From Amycolatopsis azurea DSM 43854 (lineage in GTDB: Bacteria > Actinomycetota > Actinomycetes > Mycobacteriales > Pseudonocardiaceae): DNA of 64,000 bases. Location: contig NZ_MUXN01000009.1 in NCBI RefSeq assembly GCF_001995215.1, forward strand, positions 1 through 64,000. The letters are read 5' to 3'. The position numbers and the translations under genes are program-made. Positions 5,683 through 33,813 of the stretch are shown piece by piece. The notes under the pieces are model-generated. The model saw only the letters and a program-made list of their open reading frames with translations. It was not told the DNA's origin and ran no database searches. The stretch's first letter is position 1, and each line of letters begins with the position of its first letter.

Positions 5683-6759
5683 ATGGGCGCTGTCGAAAGC
5701 CACCTCCGGTTTGGTCTGGACCTCTATCGGGTGCTGGCGAGCCGCGCGGAGAACGCGTGCTTCTCGCCGTACTCGATCGCGAGCGCGCTCGGCCTGGTGA
5801 CGCAGGCCGCCAAGGGGAAGACCAGAGAAGAACTGATCGCGCTGCTCGGCGACCCGGACGAGCTCGCCGACCTGCTGGGCAAGGCCTCGTCGCTGCTCGA
5901 CGACGGCCCTGAACTCGCGGTCGCGAACACGCTCTGGGCCTGGGACGGGCTCCCGCTCGAAGAGTCCTTCCGTGCGGAGATCGCCACGTGGCCGGGCGGC
6001 AAGGTCGAGAGCGCCCCGTTCGGCGACGACCCGGAGGGCGCGCGGCGGCTGATCAACGCCGACGTCGCCGAGGCCACCCGCGAACTGATCCCCGAGCTGC
6101 TCAAGCCGGGGACGGTCGCGCCGGACACCGTCGCGGCGATCGTCAACGCGCTGTATCTCAAAACCGCTTGGCACAATCCGTTCTCGCGTGACAACACCGC
6201 GCCCGCGGACTTCCACGCGCCGTCCGGCACCCGTACGGTGCCGACGATGTGGCTCGAAAAGCAGCTCGACCACACCCACGAGGACGGCTGGCAGGTCGTC
6301 CGCCTCGGTGCCGAGGGCGGGGTGGAGGCGATCGTCCTGCTGCCCGACGGCGACCTCGACGACGCCGAGCTCGACGCGGGCAAGCTTGCGCGACTGCTGG
6401 AGAACACGCGGTCCAGGACGCTCGCCCTGTCGCTGCCGAAGCTGGATCTGGACGTCGACAGCCCGCTGACGGCGAAACTGAAGGAGCTCGGCGTGCGGAC
6501 GATGTTCACCGCAGGCGCCGATCTCACCGGGCTCGCCGACGACGACCGGCTCGAAGTGTCCGACGTCCTCCACCAGTCCGTGCTCCGCATCGACGAACAG
6601 GGCCTCGAAGGCGCCGCCGCGACGGCGGTGCTGATGCGGCTGACGTCGATCATGGTCGACGAACCGCTCGAAGTCACCGTCGATCGTCCCTTCCTTCTGC
6701 TCGTGAGGCACGCCTCGACGGGTGTGATCTACTTTCTCGCCCGCGTTGTCGAGCCGTGA
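5683..6759 (+). CDS. Serpin family protease inhibitor
   Basis: 358 aa, lacking a signal peptide, so probably cytoplasmic. Start MGAVESHLRFGLDLY and the motif NACFSPYSIASALGL match helix A/B of serpins; the C-terminus DRPFLLLVRHASTGVIYFLARV is the serpin signature. The reactive-loop hinge is at residues 305-316 (EQGLEGAAATAV): Ala-rich P12-P9 suggests an inhibitory type. Counting from Glu305 as P17 puts P1-P1' near Thr321-Ser322, suggesting an elastase/subtilisin-like target; P14 is Leu instead of the usual Thr/Ser. Serpins are uncommon in bacteria. The next gene starts 10 bp later and may be co-transcribed. Confidence 0.9.
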   Translation: MGAVESHLRFGLDLYRVLASRAENACFSPYSIASALGLVTQAAKGKTREELIALLGDPDELADLLGKASSLLDDGPELAVANTLWAWDGLPLEESFRAEIATWPGGKVESAPFGDDPEGARRLINADVAEATRELIPELLKPGTVAPDTVAAIVNALYLKTAWHNPFSRDNTAPADFHAPSGTRTVPTMWLEKQLDHTHEDGWQVVRLGAEGGVEAIVLLPDGDLDDAELDAGKLARLLENTRSRTLALSLPKLDLDVDSPLTAKLKELGVRTMFTAGADLTGLADDDRLEVSDVLHQSVLRIDEQGLEGAAATAVLMRLTSIMVDEPLEVTVDRPFLLLVRHASTGVIYFLARVVEP

Positions 6760-6768
6760 GGATGGTCA

Positions 6769-8571
6769 GTGAGTCTTTTCCAGGCTGAGGCGGCGGACGT
6801 GGAGGCCGACGAGACTCCCACGAGACCCCGCCGGTTCGCGGCCGCCGACGCCGCCATCATGGGCGCCTTCGTGCTGTTCGCCTTCCTGCTCTACAACGGG
6901 CTTTGGCTCGATCTCGAAGAGGGCTATCTCTGGAACAGCGCGTCGGACCAGAACCTGTGGGAGTGGTTCTTCTCCGTCACCGCGGACAACGTGCTGCACC
7001 TGAGGAACCCGCTCAGCTCGCACTTCCAGAACCATCCGCTCGGCGTGAACCTGATGGCCAACACGGCCATGCTCGGCATCGGCATCCCGCTTTCGCCGAT
7101 CACGCTCACCTTCGGCCCGACGCTCACCTGGGCCATCGCGCTCACCGGCGGTCTCGCCGGCACGGCGGCGGCCTGGTACTGGGTCTTCTCACGGCATCTG
7201 GTCACCCACCGGGTCGGCGCGGCCATCGGCGGCGCGTTCATCGGGTTCGCCCCGCCGATGATCTCGCACGGCAACGCGCACCCGAACTTCGTCGCGTGGT
7301 TCGTCCTGCCGTTCATCGCGCTGCTGATCTTCAAGATCGCCCGCGGCGAGCGCCCGGTCCGCAACGGGATCTTCCTGGGGCTGCTGGCGGCGTACCAGAT
7401 CTTCCTCGGTGAAGAGCCGCTGCTGATCTTCGCGATGGCGTTCGCGATCTTCGCCATCGCCTATTTCGCGACGAACCACCGCGAGTTCCGGCCGATGGCG
7501 AAACCGCTCGGGATCGGTGTCGGCATCGGTGTCCTCGTGGCGCTCGTGCTGTGCGCGTATCCGCTGTGGTGGCAGTTCTTCGGTCCGCAGAGCTATCAGG
7601 CGATCGAACACGGCCCCGTCGGGAACGACACCGCCGCCTTCACCCGTTTCGCGACGCAGTCGGTCGCCGGGCAGCCGCAGGCCGCCGCGGACGTGTCGAT
7701 GAACCGGACCGAGGAGAACGCTTTCTTCGGCTGGCCGCTGATCGTGCTGATGGTGGTCATCACCGTCTGGCTGTGGCGCGAGGTGTTCGCGCGGGCGCTG
7801 GCGATCTCGATGTTCGTGATGGCCTGGCTCTCGCTCGGCGTGCAACTCGTGGTGGTGCACGAGGAGACCGGGATCCCGGGGCCCTGGAAGCTCCTGTCGG
7901 AACTGCCGCTGTTCGAATCGCTGCTGGAATCACGGCTCGCGATGGGCTGCATCCCGCTGATCGGCGCGCTGCTGGCGCTGGCGACCGAGCGCGTCTACGC
8001 GGTCGCGTCGAAGCTGCCGGAAGTGCCGGGGGAGCGGCGATTCCCGTTGCGGCTGCTGTGGATCGGCGTCGTCATCGCGGTACTGTTGCCGATCGCGCCG
8101 ACCCAGCTGATCGTGAAGGAACGGCCGCCGACGCCGAAGTTCCTCGCCGACGGCACCTGGCGGTCCTACGTCGCGCCCGGCGGGACCGTGGTGCCCGTGC
8201 CGTTGCCGAGTTCCGGCGAATCCGAGCCGCTGCACTGGCAGATCGACGCGGGCCTCGGCTACTCCATGCCGGAGGGCTACTTCGTTGGGCCGAGCGGTCC
8301 GGACGACAAACGTGGCCGCTACGGCGCCATCCAGCGTCCGACGTCGATCATCTTCGACCAGATCAAGCAGACCGGTGTGCCCGCGACGATCACCGAGTCG
8401 CAGCGGGTGCAGGCACTGGAGGATCTGCGGTACTGGAACGCCGACGTGCTCGTGCTGATCCCGCGCGAACACCAGGACGCGTTCCGGGCCACGGTGGATC
8501 TGCTGCTGCGGAAGCCCGCCGAGTTCGTCGACGGCGTCTGGGTCTGGGACGTCCGGACGATCACCCCCTGA
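6769..8571 (+). CDS. Polytopic GT-C-like membrane protein, function unknown
   Basis: 600 aa. After an acidic/basic 25-residue head come about 11 transmembrane helices (about 27-470), then a soluble, presumably extracytoplasmic C-terminal domain of about 130 residues. The first long loop contains DLEEGYLWNSASDQNLWEWF, acidic and aromatic like the first external loop of GT-C glycosyltransferases; the overall plan (multi-TM plus C-terminal soluble domain) also fits. I cannot name acceptor or donor. GTG at 6769 lies 9 bp after the serpin stop. The gene converges on the minus-strand operon that ends at 8575, leaving 3 bp. Confidence 0.7.
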   Translation: MSLFQAEAADVEADETPTRPRRFAAADAAIMGAFVLFAFLLYNGLWLDLEEGYLWNSASDQNLWEWFFSVTADNVLHLRNPLSSHFQNHPLGVNLMANTAMLGIGIPLSPITLTFGPTLTWAIALTGGLAGTAAAWYWVFSRHLVTHRVGAAIGGAFIGFAPPMISHGNAHPNFVAWFVLPFIALLIFKIARGERPVRNGIFLGLLAAYQIFLGEEPLLIFAMAFAIFAIAYFATNHREFRPMAKPLGIGVGIGVLVALVLCAYPLWWQFFGPQSYQAIEHGPVGNDTAAFTRFATQSVAGQPQAAADVSMNRTEENAFFGWPLIVLMVVITVWLWREVFARALAISMFVMAWLSLGVQLVVVHEETGIPGPWKLLSELPLFESLLESRLAMGCIPLIGALLALATERVYAVASKLPEVPGERRFPLRLLWIGVVIAVLLPIAPTQLIVKERPPTPKFLADGTWRSYVAPGGTVVPVPLPSSGESEPLHWQIDAGLGYSMPEGYFVGPSGPDDKRGRYGAIQRPTSIIFDQIKQTGVPATITESQRVQALEDLRYWNADVLVLIPREHQDAFRATVDLLLRKPAEFVDGVWVWDVRTITP

Positions 8572-8574
8572 GCA

Positions 8575-9465
8575 TCAGGTCCAGGGGGCGAGCGGGTACC
8601 ACGGCAGGATCCCCCGGAACTGGAGCATCCGCACGTCCCAGTAGAACAGCGTGAACACGCCGGTGAAGATCAGCGCGCCCGCGGTCAGCGCCACGATCCG
8701 CCCCGGCCTGGCCGCCAGCCAGCGCCGCAGCCCGCCGCCCGCGACGTTGACCAGGATCAGCAGGATCGCCATCACCAGGATGTTCCCCACCGATTGCAGC
8801 GTGAACGCCGCCGCGCCGTAGAGCGGGTTCCCGCTCTCCGCGGCGTCGCGGAAGATCTGCCGGAACAGCACCCACGGCCGTCCGATCAGGAACGCGCCGA
8901 TCAGCGCGCCCAGGAACACCGTGCGCGCCCGCGCGGAGAACGGATCGCGGACGTACCCGAGCTGCGCCAATCCCAGGTACGTCAGTGAAACCCCGATGAG
9001 CCCGAACACCACCATCGACTGGACGTTGCGCGCGGTCAGCTCGCCCAGCGGCGCCTGGTCGCCGGTGAACTGCGGCATCTTCGTGCCCACCAGGCTGACG
9101 ACGACGCCGTAGAGCGCGGACACGGCGATCATCCCGGCGGCCAGCAGCCGCAGCGGGGCGAGCGTCGCGCGGAACCGCGCCCAGCGGCCGCCTTCGGAGC
9201 CCAGCATCGGCGACATGGCCCCGAAAACCGCGACATTGCAGCCCGTGAACGTCCCCGCGAGACCGGACACGAACGCGTACACCACTCCCGTGACGACGCC
9301 GTCGATCGGCGACTGCGCGGGTTTGCCCAGCACGGTTTCGGTGACGCCACCGCCGATCACCGTGTCGACGAACTGCGCGGACCACACGGTGGTCAGCACG
9401 AAACCCGCGAGAGCGCTGACGAGCACCACACGCCGCCGGTTCACCTCCGTTTCGAGCGCGGTCAT
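8575..9465 (-). CDS. Polytopic membrane protein, last gene of the oxidative operon
   Basis: 296 aa with about eight hydrophobic segments and short loops. A conserved-looking stretch VSGLAGTFTGCNVAVFGAM lies near residue 60. I do not recognise the family; a small-molecule permease or quinone-linked carrier would fit the neighbourhood. The ATG at 9465 overlaps the end of the aldehyde dehydrogenase gene (stop 9462-9464), so it is the sixth and last cistron of the operon starting at 15730. A longer frame upstream exists but is antisense-like composition from the dehydrogenase. It might import the operon's substrate or export its product (inference). Confidence 0.7.
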   Translation of the reverse strand: MTALETEVNRRRVVLVSALAGFVLTTVWSAQFVDTVIGGGVTETVLGKPAQSPIDGVVTGVVYAFVSGLAGTFTGCNVAVFGAMSPMLGSEGGRWARFRATLAPLRLLAAGMIAVSALYGVVVSLVGTKMPQFTGDQAPLGELTARNVQSMVVFGLIGVSLTYLGLAQLGYVRDPFSARARTVFLGALIGAFLIGRPWVLFRQIFRDAAESGNPLYGAAAFTLQSVGNILVMAILLILVNVAGGGLRRWLAARPGRIVALTAGALIFTGVFTLFYWDVRMLQFRGILPWYPLAPWT

Positions 9466-10799
9466 CGCGCACCTGCCGGACGGTGCACGACGAACGGTTC
9501 CGTATTGCCCTCGATACCCCAGGTACCACCGGAAACGCCGAGCCCGCTCCATTTCGAGCCCGCGAACGGCTCGTCGAGGGACATGGCCAGATGCTCGTTG
9601 ACCCAGACCGTCCCGCATTCGAGCCGCATCGCGACCGCGGCGGCGTGCTCCTCGTCCGCACCCCACACCGATCCGCACAGGCCGAACGTCGTGGCGTTCG
9701 CGAGCCCGACCGCTTCGTCCACTGTGGAGCATCGTACGACCGGCAGTACCGGGCCGAACTGTTCCTCGGCCACCACCCGCATCCCGTCGTGCGCCTCGGC
9801 GAGGATCGCCGGGGCGAAGAAGTACCCGGGGCCGTCGAGCCGCCCGCCGGTGACGATCCGCGCGCCGTCCGACCGCGCTTCCTCGGTGAGACCGATGACG
9901 CGGTCGTACTGCGGCCGGTTGTTCACCGGGCCGATCTGCGTCCCGCGCGTCCGTCCGTCGCCCACCACGGCCTTCGCCGCCAAGGCCGCCAGCGCCTCGA
10001 CGACGCCGTCGTACGCGGACCCGACGGCGTAGACCCGTTTGATCGCCATGCAGATCTGCCCGCAGTTGGCGAAAGCGCTCCAGAACAGTCTTTCCGCGAC
10101 GACGGCCGGGTCGGTGCCGGGAAGGACGATCGCGGGATCGTTACCGCCCAGCTCCAGCGTCAGGCGTTTCAGATCGGCCGCGGCCGCGGCGGCCACGTGC
10201 TTCCCGGTCACGACCGAGCCGGTGAAGTTGATCTTCCGGATCCCGGGATGCGTGACCAGCCGCTCGCCGAGCGGATCCTGTCCGGTGAGCACGGTCAGCA
10301 CGCCCGGCGGCAGCACCTCCGCCAGCATCCGGCCCAGGTGCAGGGTGGTGAGCGGGGTGTGCGGCGACGGTTTGAGCACCACCGTGTTCCCCGCGGCGAA
10401 CGCGGGCGCGAGCTTCGCGACGGCCAGCTGCACGGGGAAGTTCCACGGCGTGATCGCGGCGACCGGGCCCAGCGGCCGCCGGTGCACCTCGGTCCGGCCG
10501 AGGGCCTGGGGTTCGATCCGCAGCCCGGCGAAGTACCGGAACCGCGCCGCCGCCCTGGTGAACTCGGCTTCGGCCTCCCTCAGCGGCTTCCCTTGCTCTT
10601 CGGTCAGCACGGGGGCCAGCACCGGTGCGGCCTCCTCGACGACGGCGGCGCACGACAGCAGCGCCGCGTGCCGGTCCGTGACCCGCCACGCCGGCCAGGC
10701 GTCGACGGCGGCGCGTACCGCTTTGTCGACATCGGCCGGTCCGGCGTCCGGGACGGTCGTGATCCGCTGCCCGGTCGCGGGATCCTCGACGGCGAGCAT
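9462..10799 (-). CDS. NAD(P)-dependent aldehyde dehydrogenase family protein
   Basis: 445 aa, slightly shorter than typical ALDHs (about 480). Oxidises an aldehyde to the acid. Landmarks in order: PWNFPVQLAVAKLAPAFAAG, KPSPHTPL, FTGSVVTGK, general base Glu in LELGGNDP, nucleophile Cys in NCGQICMAIKR, and EEQFGPVLPV near the C-terminus, all intact. Start ATG at 10799 overlaps the stop of the preceding hydrolase gene (ATGA). Within the operon it lies downstream of a hydrolase and P450, so a likely role is finishing an oxidation series started by the flavin enzymes. Substrate is unknown. Confidence 0.9.
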   Translation of the reverse strand: MLAVEDPATGQRITTVPDAGPADVDKAVRAAVDAWPAWRVTDRHAALLSCAAVVEEAAPVLAPVLTEEQGKPLREAEAEFTRAAARFRYFAGLRIEPQALGRTEVHRRPLGPVAAITPWNFPVQLAVAKLAPAFAAGNTVVLKPSPHTPLTTLHLGRMLAEVLPPGVLTVLTGQDPLGERLVTHPGIRKINFTGSVVTGKHVAAAAAADLKRLTLELGGNDPAIVLPGTDPAVVAERLFWSAFANCGQICMAIKRVYAVGSAYDGVVEALAALAAKAVVGDGRTRGTQIGPVNNRPQYDRVIGLTEEARSDGARIVTGGRLDGPGYFFAPAILAEAHDGMRVVAEEQFGPVLPVVRCSTVDEAVGLANATTFGLCGSVWGADEEHAAAVAMRLECGTVWVNEHLAMSLDEPFAGSKWSGLGVSGGTWGIEGNTEPFVVHRPAGAR

Positions 10800-11872
10800 C
10801 AGTCCTCCGCGCCGAGCAGTTTGGACGGGTTCACCGAACTCGTCGTGTGGACCTCCTCCTTGGTGAGCCCGAAGGCCTCCATATGCGCGCGCAGCAGCCG
10901 CAGCGCCTCGACCGTGTTGGGGAACAACGGTTCCCCGGCGTCGCTGGACAGCGTGACGTATTCGGTGCCGAGCGCCTGGATGGTCCGGCACATCTCGGCC
11001 GGGTCGACGCCGAGCAGCGGCGAGATCTCGTCGTAGGTGAAGTTCAGGTAGACGCCCGCGGACGTGAGTTCCCGCATCTGCTCCAGCGAGAGATCGATGA
11101 ACGGGCTGAACGGATGGTCGATGACCGCCTTCGTGATGCCCAGTTCGCGGACCTGTTCGGCCATCTCGAAGATTTCGGCGTGGGTCGCGTGCGCGAACGA
11201 GATCATCACGTCGTGGTCCGCGACCATCTTGAACACCTCGCGGTACTCGGGTTTGAGCTTCCCGCGCTCGTCGAGGGTGTACGTCCCGACGCGCAGCGCC
11301 TTGTCCCACGGCAGCGGATCGGTCCACACGCTGGGTTCCTCGCCCCACCAGCTGCTCATGCCGCCGACCTTGCTCAGGGTGTTGGCGCTGCGGAACACCG
11401 GCATCCACACCGCCGAGACGCCGTCGGCCAGCTGTTTGCGCGCCTGTTCCGGGATGGACAGGCCCATGGTGTCGGTGGTGATCCAGCCGGACCACAGCCG
11501 CGTCGGCGGCACCTCGGCCTCGTCGCACCACTTCCGTAGTTCGCCTTCGACCTCGCGGACGACACCGGCGGGACCGGCGACGTCGGTGCGCGCCCGCCAG
11601 ACGATGCTCTTGAACAGCAGGCCTTTCACGCCGCTGGCGGACGCGAGTTTCGCGATCGACAGGCCGTCCTGCTGTCCTTCGTGACCGTGGCAGTGGATGT
11701 CGACGGCGCCTTCGACGCCGAACACCGCGGGCGGCACGAGGACGTCGCCCCGGTAGCCCATCCGGGCCCGGTAGGAGGACAGGAACCGGTCGTGCGGGGC
11801 GTTGTTCCGCCGCCGCAGCTTCGCCTCGGCGAGGTATTCCTTCTCGTCGTCCATCTCGGCCGCGTCGTTCAT
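10799..11872 (-). CDS. Amidohydrolase-superfamily metal hydrolase (DUF6282-like)
   Basis: 357 aa. Metal-binding signatures of an amidohydrolase/PHP-like TIM barrel are visible: DIHCHGHEGQQDG (HxH) near residue 50, SFAHATHAE, AVIDHPFSPF, and a late Asp in TLSSDAGEP. The N-terminal 35 residues are charged and lack a signal, indicating a cytoplasmic enzyme. The ATG at 11872 overlaps the P450 stop by 4 bp. Proteins of this DUF6282 type have, as far as I know, no assigned reaction; hydrolysis of a C-N, C-O or C-C bond in a ring or amide would fit an oxidative pathway. Family name is from memory of motif pattern. Confidence 0.75.
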   Translation of the reverse strand: MNDAAEMDDEKEYLAEAKLRRRNNAPHDRFLSSYRARMGYRGDVLVPPAVFGVEGAVDIHCHGHEGQQDGLSIAKLASASGVKGLLFKSIVWRARTDVAGPAGVVREVEGELRKWCDEAEVPPTRLWSGWITTDTMGLSIPEQARKQLADGVSAVWMPVFRSANTLSKVGGMSSWWGEEPSVWTDPLPWDKALRVGTYTLDERGKLKPEYREVFKMVADHDVMISFAHATHAEIFEMAEQVRELGITKAVIDHPFSPFIDLSLEQMRELTSAGVYLNFTYDEISPLLGVDPAEMCRTIQALGTEYVTLSSDAGEPLFPNTVEALRLLRAHMEAFGLTKEEVHTTSSVNPSKLLGAED

Positions 11873-13155
11873 CTTCTCACCCGTCCTTCGGCGTCGTGGG
11901 TCGCGAAATAGCTTTGGGCGAGCCGTTTCCGGCGCGCGTCGAGCACCATGTAGGTGCCGAGCACCAGCTGGACCACGTCGCGCCGGACCTCCCCGGCGCG
12001 GTCCCGCACGCGGAGATACCGCAGCAGCAACCGATCCGAGCCGGGACCGTCCACCGGCCGCAGCACGCACGGCCCCCGGTTGGGGATCGAGCGGACGTGC
12101 GTCGCCGTGGAACTCAGGAGGTACCGCGACAGCACGGTCTTCGCGACCGCGCGCATCGTGGGCGGCACCATTCCCTTGGCGGGGCACGGACGGTTCGCGG
12201 TGACGCCGAACGGGATGTGGTTCGCCCGCGCCGCGCTCCGGTGCTCCCAGCGGTCCGGGTCGAAGTGCTCCGGATCGGTGAACCCGGTCGCGTGGAAATC
12301 CGCGTAGTTGAAGCACAGCACCGAACCGGCGGGCAGCGTCGTGTGTTCGTCGACGGTGATCTCGCCCGAGCTGATCCGGTGCGCGATCCCGAACAGCGGG
12401 TACCGGCGGAAGGATTCGGACAGGACCCGGTCGAGGTAGGCGTCGCCGGGTTCGGTGCGCAGGCGTGCCTGCACCTCCGGATGGTGCGCGATGGCCAGCA
12501 GCAGGTGGGTCATCGCCTCCGAGGACTGCACGACGGCGGTGTTGAAGAAGGTGCCTTGCAGGTACAGGACCTGTTCTTCGGGGGAAAGCCGTTGTGGCAG
12601 CGACAAAGGACGCTCGCGCAGCTTCTCCGTCAGATACCGGGTGAGTGCCGCCCGCCTGCCCATGTGCCGAAGCCCCAGGCATTTCAGCGCGGTGACGACG
12701 TCGGTCGCGTTGGCCACGATCAGGTCCCGCGCGTGCCGGGGACACGGTTCGCCGAACACCAGCTCGTAGTAGAACTCCGCCCAGATCGGCATCATCTCGT
12801 CGCGCAGGCGGACCAGCCGGACGCGCTCCGGCTTCTCGTCCAGGACCCGTTCCGCCGCCCGCGTGGCCCGTTCGGCGCTTTCGGCGTGCGGGCGCGCCAG
12901 GAAGCGCCGGGTGGCGCGGGCGACCTCGGCGTAGCGTTCGCCGGGTTCGAGATGTTCCTGGTGGACCTGCGGTCCCGGGGCCAGCCAGTACCAGAAGAGG
13001 TCGGACAGGACGGCGCCCTCGCTGCGGCCGTCGGCGTTCGGATGCGCGTAGACCTCGCGGAAGTGCTCGATCCCGACGGTGTCGCCGGGGATCGGCACCG
13101 CCTCCTGGCCGTTGACCCTGGCGAAGACCCAGTTGCGGAGCGCGGTCAGCGCCAT
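11869..13155 (-). CDS. Cytochrome P450
   Basis: 428 aa haem monooxygenase. The K-helix ExxR is ESFRRYPLFG; the haem loop is atypical, FGVTANRPCPAKGM with Cys324, in place of the usual bacterial FGxGxHxCxG. The I-helix lacks an obvious AGxDT: the corresponding stretch FFNTAVVQSSEAM carries no acid-alcohol pair, which occurs in P450s with unusual oxygen chemistry (for example peroxide users or NO/aldehyde-handling types). The C-terminal 60 residues after the haem loop are longer than usual. ATG 13155 overlaps the oxidase stop by 10 bp. No ferredoxin gene is adjacent, so reductase partners must be elsewhere. Confidence 0.88.
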   Translation of the reverse strand: MALTALRNWVFARVNGQEAVPIPGDTVGIEHFREVYAHPNADGRSEGAVLSDLFWYWLAPGPQVHQEHLEPGERYAEVARATRRFLARPHAESAERATRAAERVLDEKPERVRLVRLRDEMMPIWAEFYYELVFGEPCPRHARDLIVANATDVVTALKCLGLRHMGRRAALTRYLTEKLRERPLSLPQRLSPEEQVLYLQGTFFNTAVVQSSEAMTHLLLAIAHHPEVQARLRTEPGDAYLDRVLSESFRRYPLFGIAHRISSGEITVDEHTTLPAGSVLCFNYADFHATGFTDPEHFDPDRWEHRSAARANHIPFGVTANRPCPAKGMVPPTMRAVAKTVLSRYLLSSTATHVRSIPNRGPCVLRPVDGPGSDRLLLRYLRVRDRAGEVRRDVVQLVLGTYMVLDARRKRLAQSYFATHDAEGRVRR

Positions 13156-14219
13156 GGCACCTCCTCCACCAGATCGCGGCGGACGGCGGCCGGGTCGGCG
13201 TACCCGCACAAGGTCAGCGCGTTGACGATTTCCCGGCGCAGCAGGTCCAGGACCTTGGTGACACCGGCCTCGCCGTCGTAGGCGAGACCCCAGACGACCG
13301 GACGGCCGATCGCCACCGCCCGCGCGCCGAGGGCGAGGGCCTTGACCACGTCCGTGCCTCGGCGGACGCCGCCGTCGAGCAGGACCGGGACGCGGCCTTC
13401 GACGGCGTCGGCGATCCGGGGGAGCAGCCGGATCGACGGCGGGGTGGTGTCGAGCTGCCGCCCGCCGTGGTTGGACACGATCACGCCGTCGGCGCCGTGC
13501 TCGACGGCGAGCCGGGCGTCGTCGGGATGGAGCACACCCTTGAGCAGGATCGGCAGCGACGTCGTCTCGCGCAGCCACTCGATGTGTCGCCACGAGATCT
13601 CGGGCGAGAGCACGACGTTGCGGACCTCGCCCGCCTGCTCGGCCAGGTTCGGGCATTTCATCCCGGGCGGGAGGTCGTGGAAGTCGTTGCGGTCGTTGCG
13701 TTCGTGCCTGCCGAGGGCGGGGGAGTCGGCGGTGACCACCAGCGCGCGGCAGCCCGCCGCCTCCGCCCGACGGACGATCGCCTCGGTGAAGCCCAGGTCG
13801 GGCTGGAGGTAGAGCTGGAACCAGATCGGCGGTTCGTGCTCAGAGGACACCTTGCGGGCCTCGGCGGCGATGTCCTCGATCGCCACCGTCGACAGCATCG
13901 CCGAGATCAGGATCGTGCCCGCGGCCGCCGCCGCGCGGGCGGTGGCGCGTTCGCCCTCGGGATGCGCGAGCTCGTGGAACGCCGTCGGCGCCAGCAGGAC
14001 CGGCATCGACGCGCGTTCACCCAGGACGGTCACTTCCGGCGACGGCTCGCCCGCGCCGGTCAGGACCCGGGGGACGAGCGCGAGCCGTTCGAACGCGGAT
14101 TCGTTGTCCCGCACGGTGACTTCGTCCTGCGCGCCGCCGGCGAAGTAGTCGTCGCGGACCTTGTCGAGCAGGGCACGGGCGGCCTGCTCGACCTCGCGGA
14201 GGTTGACCGGCCCGGTCAC
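13146..14219 (-). CDS. FMN-dependent alpha-hydroxy-acid oxidase/dehydrogenase
   Basis: 357 aa, TIM-barrel flavoenzyme of the lactate/glycolate/mandelate oxidase family, converting a 2-hydroxy acid to a 2-keto acid. Family marks: PVLLAPTAFHELAHPEGE, ISAMLSTVAIEDIA, WFQLYLQPD, VVTADSPALGRHERNDRN, PILLKGVLHPDDA, and the catalytic VSNHGGRQLD, then LLDGGVRRGTDVVKALALGA for phosphate binding. All catalytic residues appear intact. GTG 14219 overlaps the stop of the flavin monooxygenase gene (GTGA). Place in the operon suggests action on a hydroxylated intermediate. Not tied to a hydroxymandelate synthase, so a glycopeptide Hpg role is unlikely. Confidence 0.9.
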   Translation of the reverse strand: MTGPVNLREVEQAARALLDKVRDDYFAGGAQDEVTVRDNESAFERLALVPRVLTGAGEPSPEVTVLGERASMPVLLAPTAFHELAHPEGERATARAAAAAGTILISAMLSTVAIEDIAAEARKVSSEHEPPIWFQLYLQPDLGFTEAIVRRAEAAGCRALVVTADSPALGRHERNDRNDFHDLPPGMKCPNLAEQAGEVRNVVLSPEISWRHIEWLRETTSLPILLKGVLHPDDARLAVEHGADGVIVSNHGGRQLDTTPPSIRLLPRIADAVEGRVPVLLDGGVRRGTDVVKALALGARAVAIGRPVVWGLAYDGEAGVTKVLDLLRREIVNALTLCGYADPAAVRRDLVEEVPWR

Positions 14220-15730
14220 CGGACGGCCACCAGGTCGCGGACCGGGGCGCGGTACTCGGCCTCGCCCGTCCAGTCGTTGGCGACGTCTTCGGGGAGATGC
14301 CGCGTCTCGACGAGTTCGCCGTCGCGGTACCGGCGCAGCACGGGGTGCATGTACAGCGACTCGGTCGCGGGGTCGTCCTCCCAGGCCCGTCCCGCGCTGA
14401 CGTCGAAGGGGTCGATTTCGGGATAGCCCGAGCCGTACTCCAGGGTGATCGTGACGAAACGCGTGCCGGGCCGCTCCGCGAGGGCGAGCCCGACCGGCAT
14501 CTCCTCCAGCAGCCGGGACGTGCCGTCGTCGTTCAGCACCAGTACGTCGGCGAGGAAGCCGAACTGGTTCCACAGCCCGGAACTGCGGTTCACCCGGGCC
14601 AGGATCGCGCCCGCCACGACGTCCGGATCGGCGGGCAGGTCCGTACCCGGCCACGCGGTGCCCTCGTAGCGCTGTTCGAGCACGTGGTGCAGGGCGCGGA
14701 CGCCGTAGCGGAAACCGTGCAGGACGCTGCTGGTGAACTTGCGGCGGTCGAGGACCTGGGTCAGCGTGCCCGCGAAGTACAGGCCGGGCACGGTCGCCGA
14801 TTCCCAGGCCGGGGTCAGGTCGGCGAACCGGTCGTTCATCGTCAGGCGGGGGCTCACCCGATCGGTGAAGATGCCGGTGTCCATCCGGAACCCGGTGCAG
14901 GTGACGACCCGGTCGTAGACCAGTGTCACGGTCTTCGGCCTGCGGGAATAGCGGAGGGTCACGTGGTATTCCGCGTCGCGGAGCTCGATCCTTTCCACGG
15001 TGGCGTCGAGGACCAGGTTCTGCGATTTCAACTGATAGGTGTCGAGGAAGTTGTTGTTCACCGCGCGTAGATCGCCCGAGAAATGCGTGCGCCAGGCGAA
15101 CCGGAGCGACTCCGGGCCGAGTACGTGGATCAGCGCCGCGTTCGCGACGAGATTGTCGGCGGTTTCGAACGCCGAGTTCCCCTTGCCGAGGATCAGCACC
15201 CGTTGATCGGTGAAATCCCGGGGATCTACCGAAACCTCGTCGTACGATTCCGTCGTTTCGATTCCGGGGATGTCGGGGACGAACGGGCGGGCCAGTCCGG
15301 TCGCGACGATGACCCGTTTCGCGGAGTAGGTCCTGCCGGTGTCGGTGGCGACCCGGAATTCGGTGTCCCGGTCGATCGAGGTCACCCGTGTCCCGTATTC
15401 GACCTGGACGCCCGTTTTTGCCGCGTAGTCGGCGAAGTAGTCGACCAGGAGGTCGGCAGAAGGGAAGTACTCCTCGGTGTAGCGGGTGAACCGCAGGTCC
15501 GGATCGTCGGACAGCAGGGAATTCCAGTCCATCCGGAGATTCAGTTCGGGATCGGTCCAGCCGGTGTGCGGTTTGTTGATCGAGATCAGTTTCCGGTGCC
15601 GCGGAAATGTGCGGAAGTACGAGCCGGGTGCGTCTTCCGCTTCCAGTACGACGTGATCTCTTCCGGCTCGCTGGAGGAAATGTCCGAGTTGAAGACCCGC
15701 CGGGCCCGCGCCGATGACGAGATAGTCCAT
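14216..15730 (-). CDS. NAD(P)/FAD-dependent monooxygenase, first gene of oxidative operon
   Basis: 504 aa class B-type flavoprotein. The FAD Rossmann motif is at the very start, MDYLVIGAGPAGLQLGHFL; the second dinucleotide site is RVLILGKGNSAFETADN near residue 165; a GLARPFVPDIPG hinge and late FAGTLTQVLD complete the family pattern. It resembles flavin-containing monooxygenases and N-hydroxylating enzymes that oxidise N, S or a carbonyl neighbour. ATG 15730 is preceded on its strand by a strong CGGAGGAAA site. It heads a six-gene operon; all following junctions overlap. Upstream, 12-bp direct repeats at 15813 and 15900 may be operators. Confidence 0.88.
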   Translation of the reverse strand: MDYLVIGAGPAGLQLGHFLQRAGRDHVVLEAEDAPGSYFRTFPRHRKLISINKPHTGWTDPELNLRMDWNSLLSDDPDLRFTRYTEEYFPSADLLVDYFADYAAKTGVQVEYGTRVTSIDRDTEFRVATDTGRTYSAKRVIVATGLARPFVPDIPGIETTESYDEVSVDPRDFTDQRVLILGKGNSAFETADNLVANAALIHVLGPESLRFAWRTHFSGDLRAVNNNFLDTYQLKSQNLVLDATVERIELRDAEYHVTLRYSRRPKTVTLVYDRVVTCTGFRMDTGIFTDRVSPRLTMNDRFADLTPAWESATVPGLYFAGTLTQVLDRRKFTSSVLHGFRYGVRALHHVLEQRYEGTAWPGTDLPADPDVVAGAILARVNRSSGLWNQFGFLADVLVLNDDGTSRLLEEMPVGLALAERPGTRFVTITLEYGSGYPEIDPFDVSAGRAWEDDPATESLYMHPVLRRYRDGELVETRHLPEDVANDWTGEAEYRAPVRDLVAVR

Positions 15731-15812
15731 GTGTTTCCTCCGAGGGGAGAGAGCGGAGGGATCGCCGAATAAACCGATGTGGCGGCACCGGTTTTTCGAG
15801 GGGGTTGCTGAA

Positions 15813-15911
15813 CGACAGCGTACCTTCGATGATCGAATGGGGGTTCCGGCGAAAAGGCTAATCGTCACCTACCCGGGCGGACGATGACTAAAGTAGGTTC
15901 GACAGCGTACC
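15813..15911 (+). repeat. Pair of 12-bp direct repeats upstream of oxidative operon
   Basis: CGACAGCGTACC occurs at 15813-15824 and again at 15900-15911, 87 bp apart, 83 and 170 bp before the monooxygenase start. No regulator gene is adjacent, so if these are operators their protein is encoded elsewhere. Confidence 0.6.
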
Positions 15912-16028
15912 GACAGTAAGTTCTTCATTTCGTCCCGTTCCCCGGGAATCGCGTTGGGCCGATCCATCGTTTTCCGATCTCTCTCCGTGATCGGAAAGGC
16001 CGGGTGGCTCACGTCACCGGCGAGCGGC

Positions 16029-16055
16029 TGTCACGTCCGCGTCCGCCGTCTCGTC
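16029..16055 (+). promoter_or_regulatory. ECF41 sigma-factor promoter
   Basis: TGTCACG at 16029-16035, exactly 16 bp, then CGTC at 16052-16055. This fits the published ECF41 promoter form (TGTCACA, about 16 bp, CGTC) with one mismatch. The start codon of the AhpD-like gene is 34 bp downstream with a GTAGGAGGAGGA ribosome site between. The cognate ECF41 gene lies tail-to-tail with that gene. Confidence 0.75.
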
Positions 16056-16089
16056 CACCCGGTGATCGCAACCGTAGGAGGAGGACACC

Positions 16090-16656
16090 ATGCCGCGTAT
16101 TCCCGCCGTCAAGACCGCCGAAGCCGGCTTCCTGCTGAAGTTCATCTACAAGTTCGCCGGGAAGCGGTTCGGCGCCGTGCCCGAGCCGATGGCCGTCTAC
16201 GCGCACCATCCGGCGCTGCTGCGGGCCAACGGCGTGCACGAGATGCTGGCGGAGAAGGCCAGCAAGACGCTGCCGTCGAACGTGCGCGAGCTGGCCGTGT
16301 ACCGCGTCGCGACTCGGCTGGGCTGCTCGTGGTGCATCGACTTCGGGACCATGCTGCAACTGCACGAGGGCCTCGACATCGAACGGCTGAAGACCATCGA
16401 CGACTACGCGAAGTCGCCCGCCTTCACCGCGCAGGAACGGCTCGCGCTCGCGTACGCCGACGCGATGACCGCGAGCCCGGTGACCGTCACCGACGAACAG
16501 GTCGCCGAGCTGGAACGCGAGTTCGGTCGCAAGGGTGTCATCGAGCTGACCTACCAGATCGGGCTCGAGAACATGCGTGCCCGGATGAACAGCGCGCTCG
16601 ACATCACCGCCCAGGGCTTCACCTCGGGCGACGCGTGCAAGATCCCGCTTCCCTGA
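16090..16656 (+). CDS. Carboxymuconolactone decarboxylase / AhpD-family protein
   Basis: 188 aa all-helical CMD-fold protein. It carries the redox motif CSWCIDFG near residue 78 with upstream Arg/Glu-rich helix (VRELAVYRVATRLG) and a late DEQVAELEREFG helix, the AhpD-like arrangement in which a CxxC pair acts as a disulfide reductase; a decarboxylase role is less likely because of the CxxC. A strong Shine-Dalgarno (AGGAGGAGGACACC) fixes the ATG. CMD proteins are the commonest targets of ECF41 sigma factors, and both the sigma gene and its promoter are present here. Stop lies 4 bp from the stop of the converging sigma gene. Confidence 0.9.
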   Translation: MPRIPAVKTAEAGFLLKFIYKFAGKRFGAVPEPMAVYAHHPALLRANGVHEMLAEKASKTLPSNVRELAVYRVATRLGCSWCIDFGTMLQLHEGLDIERLKTIDDYAKSPAFTAQERLALAYADAMTASPVTVTDEQVAELEREFGRKGVIELTYQIGLENMRARMNSALDITAQGFTSGDACKIPLP

Positions 16657-16660
16657 TCCG

Positions 16661-17599
16661 TCAAGCGCCGACGCGGGCCCGGGCGGTGGTGAGCTTGTCC
16701 GGGTTCGCGACGTCGTAGATCTCCACGATCTTCCCGTCGCGGATGACGAAGGCGTCGACGTGCTCGTCGAGCGCCCGGTACCCCTCCGAAGCGGCCTGCG
16801 GCGGGATGTAGAGCCCGAGGTCGCCGTTGACCAGCGCGAGCCTCGCCTGCTCGATGCCTGCCGGGTCGTACATCCGCATGAGCCCCTGGAACAGCCGGGT
16901 GACCTTGTCGAATCCGGTGACCGTGTGGACCGCCGTGCGCGCCTTGCCGCCGCCGTCCCCGACGAGGACGACGTCCGGATGCAGCACCTCGGCCACCGCC
17001 TGGATGTCGCCGGTGAGCATCGCGGTCATGAACTTCTCGATGATCTGCTGCTGCTCGGCGAGCGCCGTCCGGGGCGGCGGGTCGGCGTCGGCGACGGCGC
17101 GGCGGCCGCGGGAACCGTGCTGGCGCGCGGCCTCGACCGTGCAGCCCAGGATCTCGGCGATCTCGCCGAACGGCACCGAAAACGCGTCGTGCAGGACGAA
17201 CGCGACGCGCTGCTCGGCGGTCAGCCGGTCGAGGACCACCATCGCCGCCATCCGCATGCCGTCGTCGCGGACCGCGATGGTCAGCGGGTCCTCCGACGAC
17301 GGCGTGCCCAGCGGGCCGAGCACCGGCTCGGGCAGCCACTCGCCGACGTACCGCTCGCGGCGCACCACCGCCGAGCGCAACCGGTCGAGGCAGATCCGGC
17401 TGACGACGGTGGTCAGCCAGCCCTTGTGGTCCTCGATGGCCGCGCGGCGGCGCTCGTCGAGGCCGCTCAGCCGCAGCCACGACTCCTGGACCGCGTCCTC
17501 GGCGTCGGCGAGCGTGCCGGTGAGCCGGTAGGCGACCGACACCAGATGGGGGCGCAACGCGGCGAAGTTCCCGGCGAGTTCGTCCAGGGCGGTGCTCAT
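16661..17599 (-). CDS. sigJ: ECF41-family RNA polymerase sigma factor (SigJ type)
   Basis: 312 aa. Sigma region 2 (YRLTGTLADAEDAVQESWL) and region 4 (AFVLHDAFSVPFGEIAEILG) are followed by a SnoaL-like extension of about 120 residues. The three ECF41 hallmarks are present: WLPEP in the linker, DGGGK in the extension, and NPDKL near the C-terminus. In this group the extension, not a separate anti-sigma factor, controls activity (published for Bacillus and Rhodobacter members). Symbol follows the mycobacterial ECF41 member SigJ. Start ATG 17599; its only clear local target is the promoter at 16029. It is divergent from dnaG with a 45-bp gap. Confidence 0.92.
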   Translation of the reverse strand: MSTALDELAGNFAALRPHLVSVAYRLTGTLADAEDAVQESWLRLSGLDERRRAAIEDHKGWLTTVVSRICLDRLRSAVVRRERYVGEWLPEPVLGPLGTPSSEDPLTIAVRDDGMRMAAMVVLDRLTAEQRVAFVLHDAFSVPFGEIAEILGCTVEAARQHGSRGRRAVADADPPPRTALAEQQQIIEKFMTAMLTGDIQAVAEVLHPDVVLVGDGGGKARTAVHTVTGFDKVTRLFQGLMRMYDPAGIEQARLALVNGDLGLYIPPQAASEGYRALDEHVDAFVIRDGKIVEIYDVANPDKLTTARARVGA

Positions 17600-32598: not shown

Positions 32599-33813
32599 AT
32601 GACCGAAGACAAAGCGGCGCCGCAGTTTCCGATGGCTCGGGCGGCGGGATGTCCGCTCGCGCCGGCGCCGGAACTGACCAGGCTGGCCGAACTCGATCCG
32701 GTGTCACGGGTGAGGTTGTGGGACGGCAGTACGCCGTGGCTGGTCACGCGGCACGAAGACGTGCGTGCGGTGCTGGCCGACCCGCGCGTCAGCGTCGATG
32801 CCACGCAACCCGCCTTTCCGCACACCAACCCGGTGAGCAAGGCCCGCGACACCCGGATGAAAACGCTGATGCAGATGGACGCGCCGGAACACGCCGCCCA
32901 GCGACGGCTGCTGACGCCGGAGTTCACGGTCAAGAAGATGGAGGTCCTGCGGCCCCGGATCCAGCGGATCGTCGACGACCTCGTCGACGAGATGCTCGCC
33001 GGTCCCCGGCCGGTCGATCTGGTCGAGGCGTTCGCGCTCCCGGCCCCGTCGCGGGTGATCTGCGAACTGCTGGGCGTGCCCTACGCCGACCGCGCCTACT
33101 TCCAGGGCGTGGCGCGCACGCTCGTCATGGACGAAGGCGATCCCCGAAAAGCCATGGCCGCCAGCGAAGAACTGAACACCTACCTGGAGAACCTGGTGCT
33201 GGAGCGGGGCGCCGACCCCGGCGAAGACCTGATCAGCGCCTTGACCGTCGGGCAATTCCGGACCGGCGCGATGACCTCACGCGAGATCGCGATGCTGGGC
33301 CAGCTGCTCCTGGTCGCCGGGCACGACACGACCGCGAGCATGATCACCTTGGGCACGATCGCGCTCCTGGCCCATCCGGAGCAGCTCCATGCCGTTCGGG
33401 ACAGCGGAGATCCCGCGGTGGTGGCCAACGCCGTGGAAGAACTCCTGCGCCACCTGTCGGTCACCCATACCGAAGCCCGCCGTGTCGCGCGGGAAGACCT
33501 GGAGATCGGCGGCCGGCTCATCCGCGCCGGCGAGGGCATCATCGCGGTGAAGAGCACTGCGAACCGGGACCACGCCGTCTTCCCGGACCCCGGCACCCTC
33601 GACGTCCACCGCAAGACCCGGCACCATCTCGCTTTCGGCTACGGCAAGCATCTGTGCCTGGGCGCTCCGCTGGCGCGGGTGGAGCTTCAGGTCGTCTACG
33701 GCACGCTTTTCCGGCGCGTACCGACGCTGACATTGGCGAAACCGTTGAGTGACTTGGAGTTCGACGAGAACGCGATCTTCTACACGGTGCGGGAGCTGCC
33801 CGTCACCTGGTGA
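32599..33813 (+). CDS. Cytochrome P450 (CYP105-like)
   Basis: 404 aa. Standard bacterial P450: I-helix LLLVAGHDTTASMITL, K-helix EELLRHL, and haem loop FGYGKHLCLGAPLAR with axial Cys353. The N-terminus (FPMARAAGCPLAPAPEL) and MDAPEHAAQRRLLTPEFTVK are typical of CYP105/107 xenobiotic or macrolide hydroxylases. GGGAGGATTCC precedes ATG 32599. No ferredoxin follows; the gene is alone, ending at a long palindrome. Divergent from the VOC gene with an 83-bp gap. Confidence 0.93.
   Translation: MTEDKAAPQFPMARAAGCPLAPAPELTRLAELDPVSRVRLWDGSTPWLVTRHEDVRAVLADPRVSVDATQPAFPHTNPVSKARDTRMKTLMQMDAPEHAAQRRLLTPEFTVKKMEVLRPRIQRIVDDLVDEMLAGPRPVDLVEAFALPAPSRVICELLGVPYADRAYFQGVARTLVMDEGDPRKAMAASEELNTYLENLVLERGADPGEDLISALTVGQFRTGAMTSREIAMLGQLLLVAGHDTTASMITLGTIALLAHPEQLHAVRDSGDPAVVANAVEELLRHLSVTHTEARRVAREDLEIGGRLIRAGEGIIAVKSTANRDHAVFPDPGTLDVHRKTRHHLAFGYGKHLCLGAPLARVELQVVYGTLFRRVPTLTLAKPLSDLEFDENAIFYTVRELPVTW

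Follow-up and report, generated by a model that had tools for sequence, protein, structure and literature searches.

A modular and apparently undescribed operon for oxidation, encoding an atypical cytochrome P450, in Amycolatopsis azurea

The window analyzed here, that is, the whole stretch of 64,000 nucleotides at positions 1 to 64,000 of contig NZ_MUXN01000009.1 of Amycolatopsis azurea DSM 43854 (genome size, 9.2 Mb), contains an apparently undescribed oxidation operon. The operon occupies positions 15730-8575 of the minus strand and comprises six open frames, which overlap successively by 4, 10, 4, 1 and 4 bp from the flavoprotein gene to the membrane protein gene. The six genes are as follows.

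15730-14216, minus strand: flavoprotein, 504 aa, with an NAD(P)H/FAD two-dinucleotide fold (Pyr_redox_3, PF13738, 174 bits; GAGPAG and GKGNSAFE motifs)
14219-13146, minus strand: flavin mononucleotide (FMN)-dependent alpha-hydroxyacid oxidase-type enzyme (HAO), 357 aa, GTG start (FMN_dh, PF01070, 408 bits)
13155-11869, minus strand: atypical cytochrome P450, 428 aa (p450, PF00067, 57 bits)
11872-10799, minus strand: DUF6282 enzyme, 357 aa (PF19799, 98.4 bits against a cut-off of 26.8)
10799-9462, minus strand: aldehyde dehydrogenase (ALDH), 445 aa (Aldedh, PF00171, 456 bits)
9465-8575, minus strand: hydrophobic, probably integral membrane protein of no described family, 296 aa (no Pfam or NCBIfam match)

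A first-pass annotation, made from the sequence alone, had described six overlapping genes here, and these are real: all six frames are open, and the Pfam scan of the operon proteins confirmed five enzyme families, each above its curated cut-off. The sixth protein matched no Pfam or NCBIfam family at E ≤ 1e-2, and no operon protein reached any NCBIfam cut-off among the matches listed (the best 25 for the flavoprotein and ALDH). The overlaps, given as 4-10 bp, were correct for four junctions (4, 10, 4 and 4 bp) and incorrect for the DUF6282/ALDH junction (1 bp). A consensus scan of positions 8000-16700 detected neither a sigma-70-like promoter nor a terminator on the operon strand, which is little informative for an actinomycete. 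The six genes, with matching flanks, were also present in Amycolatopsis thailandensis (L152 = L172) and A. oliviviridis (L153 = L173), the closest named relatives as judged by this operon, and an assembly artefact is thus ruled out. The first-pass annotation had noted no synthase gene; in agreement, visual inspection of the first 90 residues of every gene called in the window revealed nothing resembling a polyketide synthase (PKS) or nonribosomal peptide synthetase (NRPS).

To gather relatives of the P450, we searched 150 genomes of the family, 80 of the genus and 397 of the order, together with a collection of 84,980 species (one genome per species). Close relatives were detected in 29 of the family genomes and 47 of the genus genomes (both at E ≤ 1e-20) and in 35 of the order genomes (E ≤ 1e-40), and a two-peptide-pattern scan of the species collection yielded 331 P450 relatives, the best 80 of which provided the named-species loci. 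The 128 loci fetched (28 family, 20 genus and 80 named) and the window were reduced to 115 distinct loci by removing identical P450 stretches. Neighbor counts refer to the 102 of these loci that have 4.5 kb or more of sequence on each side.

An HAO gene was located upstream of the P450 gene, on the same strand and at most 1200 bp away, at 100 of the 102 loci (within 250 bp at 94; not found at L192 and L216). Further, a flavoprotein gene was located within 4.5 kb upstream at 95 loci (not found at L177, L193, L218, L225, L230, L234 and L248). According to the labels of their records, the core loci are spread over six families of actinomycetes. At four Acrocarpospora loci and one Actinomadura locus (L193, L218, L225, L234 and L248), the HAO-P450 pair is kept without a flavoprotein gene upstream. 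A gene of a Sulfotransfer_4-like cluster (member L181 was scanned) lies between HAO and P450 at these five loci. Because the pair persists where no upstream flavoprotein was found and where another gene lies between the two, HAO and P450 are the most tightly linked steps. Two P450 relatives (L187 and L224) came from metagenome bins bearing the names Candidatus Sulfopaludibacter and Melainabacteria; the cause is either broad gene transfer or the placing of actinobacterial contigs in the wrong bins.

Thus, the natural unit is a three-gene core of flavoprotein, HAO and P450 with exchangeable accessory genes, and the six-gene version is local. The six genes had been taken as the unit, which did not hold: the core recurs, and the membrane protein gene accompanies it at only 4 of the 115 loci. 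In contrast, the proposal that the genes serve a single pathway gained support, because their order recurs well beyond this strain; comparison across actinomycetes revealed neither an order restricted to the strain nor scattered orthologues. A search of open-licence PMC papers found no description of a pathway with this gene set, in agreement with the earlier statement that none was known.

The accessory genes distinguish two types of operon. In type 1, the P450 gene is followed by that of a CPA2-type Na+/H+ exchanger (antiporter; the one member scanned was above the Pfam cut-off and below that of TIGR00932), and an AMP-forming ligase gene was present within 4.5 kb of the P450 gene at 64 of the 102 loci. 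The PDB entries nearest to the one ligase scanned, 6sq8 and 6h1b, are named fatty acid CoA ligase; we take both to be the amide bond synthetase McbA. Extra genes at some loci encode an aromatic ammonia-lyase (15/102), a sulfotransferase-like protein (25/102) or a response regulator (50/102; one representative of each was scanned). The single-query thresholds undercount neighbors: 22 of the 102 loci show no antiporter, major facilitator superfamily (MFS) or DUF6282 gene, yet several of them have a called antiporter. By gene calling, the antiporter was present at 44 of the 48 fetched whole-genome loci.

In type 2, to which the window belongs, DUF6282 comes after the P450 gene, in most cases together with ALDH. 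DUF6282 was present at 11 of the 115 loci, ALDH at 8 and the membrane protein at 4, in hosts belonging to Pseudonocardiaceae, Thermomonosporaceae and Micromonosporaceae. At all 11 DUF6282 loci, searches and gene calls detected neither the ligase (whole fetched stretch) nor the antiporter (up to 2 kb downstream), and no locus carried both accessory sets by these searches; a few loci match neither type. An MFS gene lies between P450 and DUF6282 at 5 of the 11 loci (L178, L179, L180, L182 and L194) and is missing from this place in the window, L152 and L153. A response regulator and a kinase are encoded downstream at five (L174, L175, L177, L178 and L179). In Lentzea sp. NBRC 105346 (L180), the six genes are all present and arranged as in the window, with the MFS gene added.

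In a P450 tree of 109 rows (quick IQ-TREE, SH-aLRT support only), the 11 DUF6282-type rows formed nearly one clade and required 2 changes, compared with a mean of 10.6 when shuffled. The smallest fork that contains all 11 also includes L221 and L250 and has a support of 86, and it was drawn open. A single origin of this type is therefore possible but not established, because the enclosing fork is weakly supported and adds these two rows. The hydrophobic stretch at the N-terminus of the P450 is missing at the four loci that also encode the membrane protein (window, L152, L153 and L180) and present at the other seven of this type. Because these four form one clade, the difference reflects one event at most.

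We next consider the P450. Counts refer to 109 sequences, as six loci without a called P450 of at least 300 aa were left out. The residues characteristic of the superfamily are conserved (Cys324 in 109/109, Arg250 in 108/109, and Glu247 in 105/109 with Asp in the other 4). In contrast, the I-helix acid-alcohol pair is replaced by Val209-Gln210 in all 109 sequences, which consequently lack the canonical (A/G)Gx(D/E)(T/S) motif. The register was set with a canonical P450 encoded at positions 32599-33813 of the window, in which the catalytic Thr (AGHDT) precedes a conserved HP by 14 residues; the same count leads to Gln210, and Val209 occupies the Asp/Glu place immediately before it. Three of four other P450s from the loci exhibited the same 14-residue spacing, and the fourth ends in a different sequence. 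The alignment with CYP3A4 gives the same register if AGYETT lies, as we presume, just before the aligned stretch. Further, the haem loop is one residue longer than those of the canonical window P450 and CYP3A4, and residue 326 is Ala in 109/109 at a position where we take Gly to be usual in P450s.

The AlphaFold2 model of the P450 (mean pLDDT, 89.3) was most similar to zebrafish CYP17A2 (Z 27.6, root-mean-square deviation [rmsd] 3.0, 342 aligned residues). P450 BSbeta (Z 26.0) was tied with many others, the 50 matches listed spanning Z 25.3-27.6. Among the 50 Foldseek matches listed, P450 BSbeta had the top model-normalized TM-score (0.64), and CYP51 entries scored 0.57-0.62. The comparison of modeled folds does not decide the class. 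There was no Arg at positions 205-213 in the 109 sequences, as judged from the five commonest residues per position (1/109 unlisted at position 211; register by sequence counting). Because the fold scores tie with many P450s and no I-helix Arg was seen, we did not file the enzyme in CYP152. The best NCBIfam profile was ApyO, with a score of 49 bits (cut-off, 525); 38 of 40 members matched this profile at E ≤ 0.001. A reading as an enzyme of ribosomally synthesized and post-translationally modified peptides was rejected, as this score indicates a superfamily-level match only, and aldoxime/nitrile chemistry was set aside for lack of positive evidence.

The departures in the I helix and haem loop would suit a non-oxygenase P450 (isomerase, dehydratase or lyase) that converts what the flavoprotein produces, for example an oxime, while HAO and ALDH clear side products. 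The coupling of its gene to that of a two-dinucleotide flavoprotein and the failure to detect a ferredoxin gene nearby (see below) point in the same direction. We nevertheless consider such a role very unlikely, since no known non-oxygenase P450 stood out among the matches and the fold ties with those of many ordinary P450s.

The earlier statement that the operon lacks a ferredoxin gene was borne out: a profile built from nine ferredoxins of the host genome matched nothing in the window, and nothing within 6.5 kb of the P450 gene, or up to the end of shorter stretches, at any of the 115 core loci. The profile covers the 3Fe-4S/4Fe-4S type (the 2Fe-2S type was not sought), and the nine controls that it recovered (9/9) were its own training set. 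The host genome contains nine ferredoxin matches with PF13459 and nine with PF13370, all on other contigs, and a partner could thus be borrowed. This favors a further explanation, namely ordinary tailoring, in which an O2-dependent P450 borrows a ferredoxin of the genome, and HAO and the flavoprotein act at different positions of a natural product that receives its scaffold from another locus. Ferredoxin genes are missing from other P450 clusters as well, and the ligase of type 1 (64/102 loci) and the aromatic ammonia-lyase (15/102) would suit biosynthesis. Further, ApyO, the best profile in spite of its low score, is run with ferredoxin according to PMC13192836. Tailoring is nonetheless somewhat unlikely in our view: the O2-activating pair is replaced in 109/109 P450s, HAO and P450 are paired far more tightly than free tailoring needs, and no PKS- or NRPS-like gene was recognized by eye near the window operon.

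The HAO possesses the FMN_dh domain, and Ala80, Lys227, His251 and Arg254, which include the catalytic Lys, His and Arg, were invariant in 108/108 sequences (seven loci without a called HAO of at least 300 aa were left out). We take Ala80 to correspond to the Ala of oxidases. Tyr137 is kept in 101/108, and position 172 is Arg in 67, His in 32 and Asn in 9. No cytochrome b5 domain was found in the Pfam scan. Ranked by single-domain score, glycolate oxidase and hydroxyacid oxidase 1 were the nearest solved structures, at about 296 bits; the list was topped by two chains of lactate oxidase only by virtue of two copies in each, with about 185-201 bits per copy. The residues of the 108 members are consistent with a working 2-hydroxyacid enzyme.

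The flavoprotein had been called a flavin monooxygenase. Both dinucleotide motifs are present, but the FMO-like family PF00743 was not among the 13 Pfam families that matched at E ≤ 0.01, and the His position of the fingerprint that we take to mark class B flavin monooxygenases, FxGxxxHxxx(Y/F), is occupied by Asp in 112 of 116 flavoproteins and by Glu in 4 (placed by eye). The label monooxygenase is therefore unproven.

In the DUF6282 enzyme, His60, His62, His228, His253 and Asp311 (HxH, His, His, Asp) were invariant at the 11 loci. Its copies at operon loci were 71-97% identical to that of the window, compared with 26-33% for other homologues in the family, suggesting that it is a dedicated enzyme of this pathway. 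Close orthologues are rare in the genus (3 of 80 genomes; six more had matches of 27-31% only). Identity above 33% was found in 1 of the 150 family genomes, and a match at E ≤ 1e-30 in 1 of 394 class genomes, which was in both cases the genome of the window itself. Sequence comparison with PDB gave no match up to E 1 when the protein was used alone and three chance-level matches with a profile. In VIA-align, dipeptidase, dihydroorotase and phosphotriesterase-like barrels led (Z 13-15; best Z 14.8, rmsd 3.5, 234 aligned residues). Together with the invariant residues, these modeled barrels indicate that DUF6282 is probably a metal enzyme of the amidohydrolase superfamily. Homologues elsewhere (L148-L150) have neighbors that look, by eye, like genes of catabolism and transport. 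ALDH, a member of PF00171, was closest among solved structures to 8yen (365 bits) and then to phenylacetaldehyde dehydrogenase (287 bits); the copies at L174, L175, L180, L182, L194 and L195 were 61-72% identical to their best reference copy.

These neighbors raise the question of whether the operon is purely catabolic and degrades an imported aromatic or fatty acid, the antiporter/ligase type performing an unrelated task with the same core. DUF6282 and ALDH travel together, joined by the MFS gene at 5 of 11 loci, and the setting of the DUF6282 homologues at L148-L150 agrees with this. The only MFS protein scanned, that of L178, came closest to the subfamily of aromatic acid/H+ symporters (132.8 bits against a cut-off of 418.55). 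We regard this explanation as unlikely, because no ring-cleavage or beta-oxidation gene was recognized by eye beside the operon, the window operon itself has no MFS gene, and the core is common to the ligase type. The earlier suggestion of an imported substrate accordingly holds in part: the MFS gene and its sub-threshold similarity favor it and the window without such a gene does not. The choice between catabolism and tailoring is not settled, since type 1 with its frequent ligase looks biosynthetic, whereas DUF6282, ALDH and MFS look degradative.

We propose, with a rough probability of 0.35, that the operon encodes one oxidative pathway and represents the type with DUF6282 and ALDH among operons that share a widespread flavoprotein-HAO-P450 set, the pathway running from alpha-hydroxylation through a keto acid and its cleavage to aldehyde oxidation. 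A P450 without the O2-activating pair adjoins an enzyme of an H2O2-making type, which suggests alpha-hydroxylation followed by keto-acid formation. The P450 would hydroxylate the alpha-carbon of a small, probably aromatic, carboxylic acid, and HAO would oxidize the resulting 2-hydroxy acid to the 2-keto acid with release of H2O2. The DUF6282 metal enzyme may then cleave the product by decarboxylation or hydrolysis to an aldehyde, which ALDH would convert to the shortened acid; together, the two would leave the chain one carbon shorter. The flavoprotein may carry out a further NAD(P)H-dependent oxidation, the place of which in the sequence is not fixed, and the membrane protein, or the MFS protein in relatives, may transport the substrate or product.

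Several observations weigh against this pathway. We take two HAO positions to match Trp108 and Tyr24 of glycolate oxidase. The Trp108 equivalent is Met in 100/108 HAOs, and the Tyr24 equivalent is Phe in 32/108 and Tyr in 76 (both matched by eye). The HAO family therefore does not have the full set of seven residues that we take to be conserved in the active site of glycolate oxidase. In PMC8491902, 8 of 10 inactive proteins lacked at least one of seven conserved residues, compared with 2 of 14 active ones, and all seven were present in 12 of the 14 active proteins. Given these counts and the replaced residues, the substrate of HAO is probably unusual, or its activity is still to be shown. Further, the model of DUF6282 is middling (mean pLDDT, 68.8), and its Foldseek ranking was led by aldolases, RuBisCO-like proteins and further barrels (TM-scores relative to the model, 0.2-0.45). 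The link to an aromatic acid comes from one sub-threshold match, that of the L178 MFS protein, and because the type 1 ligase is nearest to entries named fatty acid CoA ligase, the core substrate might instead be aliphatic or biosynthetic. Finally, the P450 could act on a different part of the molecule than HAO.

A special form of the proposed pathway is that HAO and P450 constitute a natural peroxide-recycling pair, in which the P450 uses H2O2, and HAO with O2 returns it. The net reaction would be R-CH2-COOH + O2 -> R-CO-COOH + H2O, with neither ferredoxin nor NAD(P)H. We consider this doubtful. PMC10750395 reports that a Thr-to-Ala substitution abolished the peroxygenase activity of CYP105D18 and that Thr-to-Ala or -Val substitutions in P450cam led to wasted H2O2; loss of Thr alone thus does not make a peroxygenase. 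The substrate-anchoring I-helix Arg is conserved in CYP152, according to PMC9112060, and no such Arg was seen in the operon P450s. Further, the nearest profile is that of the ferredoxin-run ApyO (PMC13192836).

Relatives of the membrane protein were detected in 31 of the 150 family genomes, and the core operon was absent from all 15 stretches fetched around such relatives. A second copy in the same genome (G000:C16:156594-157472) is 56% identical, and its neighbors are alike in one relative from the genus (L146 and L147). At L134, L135 and L137, relatives lie beside a PKS-like gene encoding 1,893-1,921 aa, which by eye is enediyne-PKS-like; similar downstream genes occur at L142 and L143, without a PKS gene in the fetched stretch. 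Beside the operon, positions 16090-17599 of the window contain, end to end, a CMD/AhpD-like gene and a gene for an ECF sigma factor that carries a SnoaL-like domain (Pfam). The synteny of this pair, which we presume to be an ECF41 module, is kept in L152 and L153. On the other side, positions 5683-6759 encode a full-length serpin (PF00079, 272.8 bits); serpins are uncommon in bacteria.

The operon gives DUF6282 a pathway context and points to an apparently undescribed route that is common in rare actinomycetes. The linkage of P450 and HAO raises the question of whether nature already runs the peroxide-recycling cascade that biocatalysis laboratories have assembled. If so, the 331 P450 relatives suggest that very many actinomycete species would possess a cofactor-free oxidation module. 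If the P450 is an ordinary monooxygenase, the operon still represents a widely conserved orphan pathway, of an ordinary kind.

The artificial cascade described in PMC5768024 likewise pairs a P450 peroxygenase with an alpha-hydroxyacid oxidase and recycles H2O2 internally. It is, however, an in vitro system of P450CLA (CYP152) and unrelated oxidases, whereas the P450 described here lacks the anchoring Arg, and its use of H2O2 is hypothetical. The CYP152 peroxygenases P450 BSbeta and OleT resemble the operon P450 through a weak CypC profile match (18 of 40 members) and a fold about as close as those of other P450s, but identity in the structural alignments is about 12-18%. CYP152 enzymes likewise depart from the usual I-helix pair, and the Val-Gln of the operon P450 presumably stands where they have Arg-Pro. 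HAO shares with FMN-dependent 2-hydroxyacid oxidases the FMN_dh domain, the catalytic Lys/His/Arg and, at the position we presume, the oxidase-type Ala. It differs in that Met replaces what we take to be Trp108/Tyr124 in 100/108 sequences and in being tied to a P450 gene. In the mandelate pathway, mandelate dehydrogenase, benzoylformate decarboxylase and benzaldehyde dehydrogenase act in turn, and the proposed order of 2-hydroxy acid, 2-keto acid, aldehyde and acid is the same. Unlike that pathway, the operon has no thiamine-dependent decarboxylase, the step of which DUF6282 would take, and the P450 would precede the sequence.

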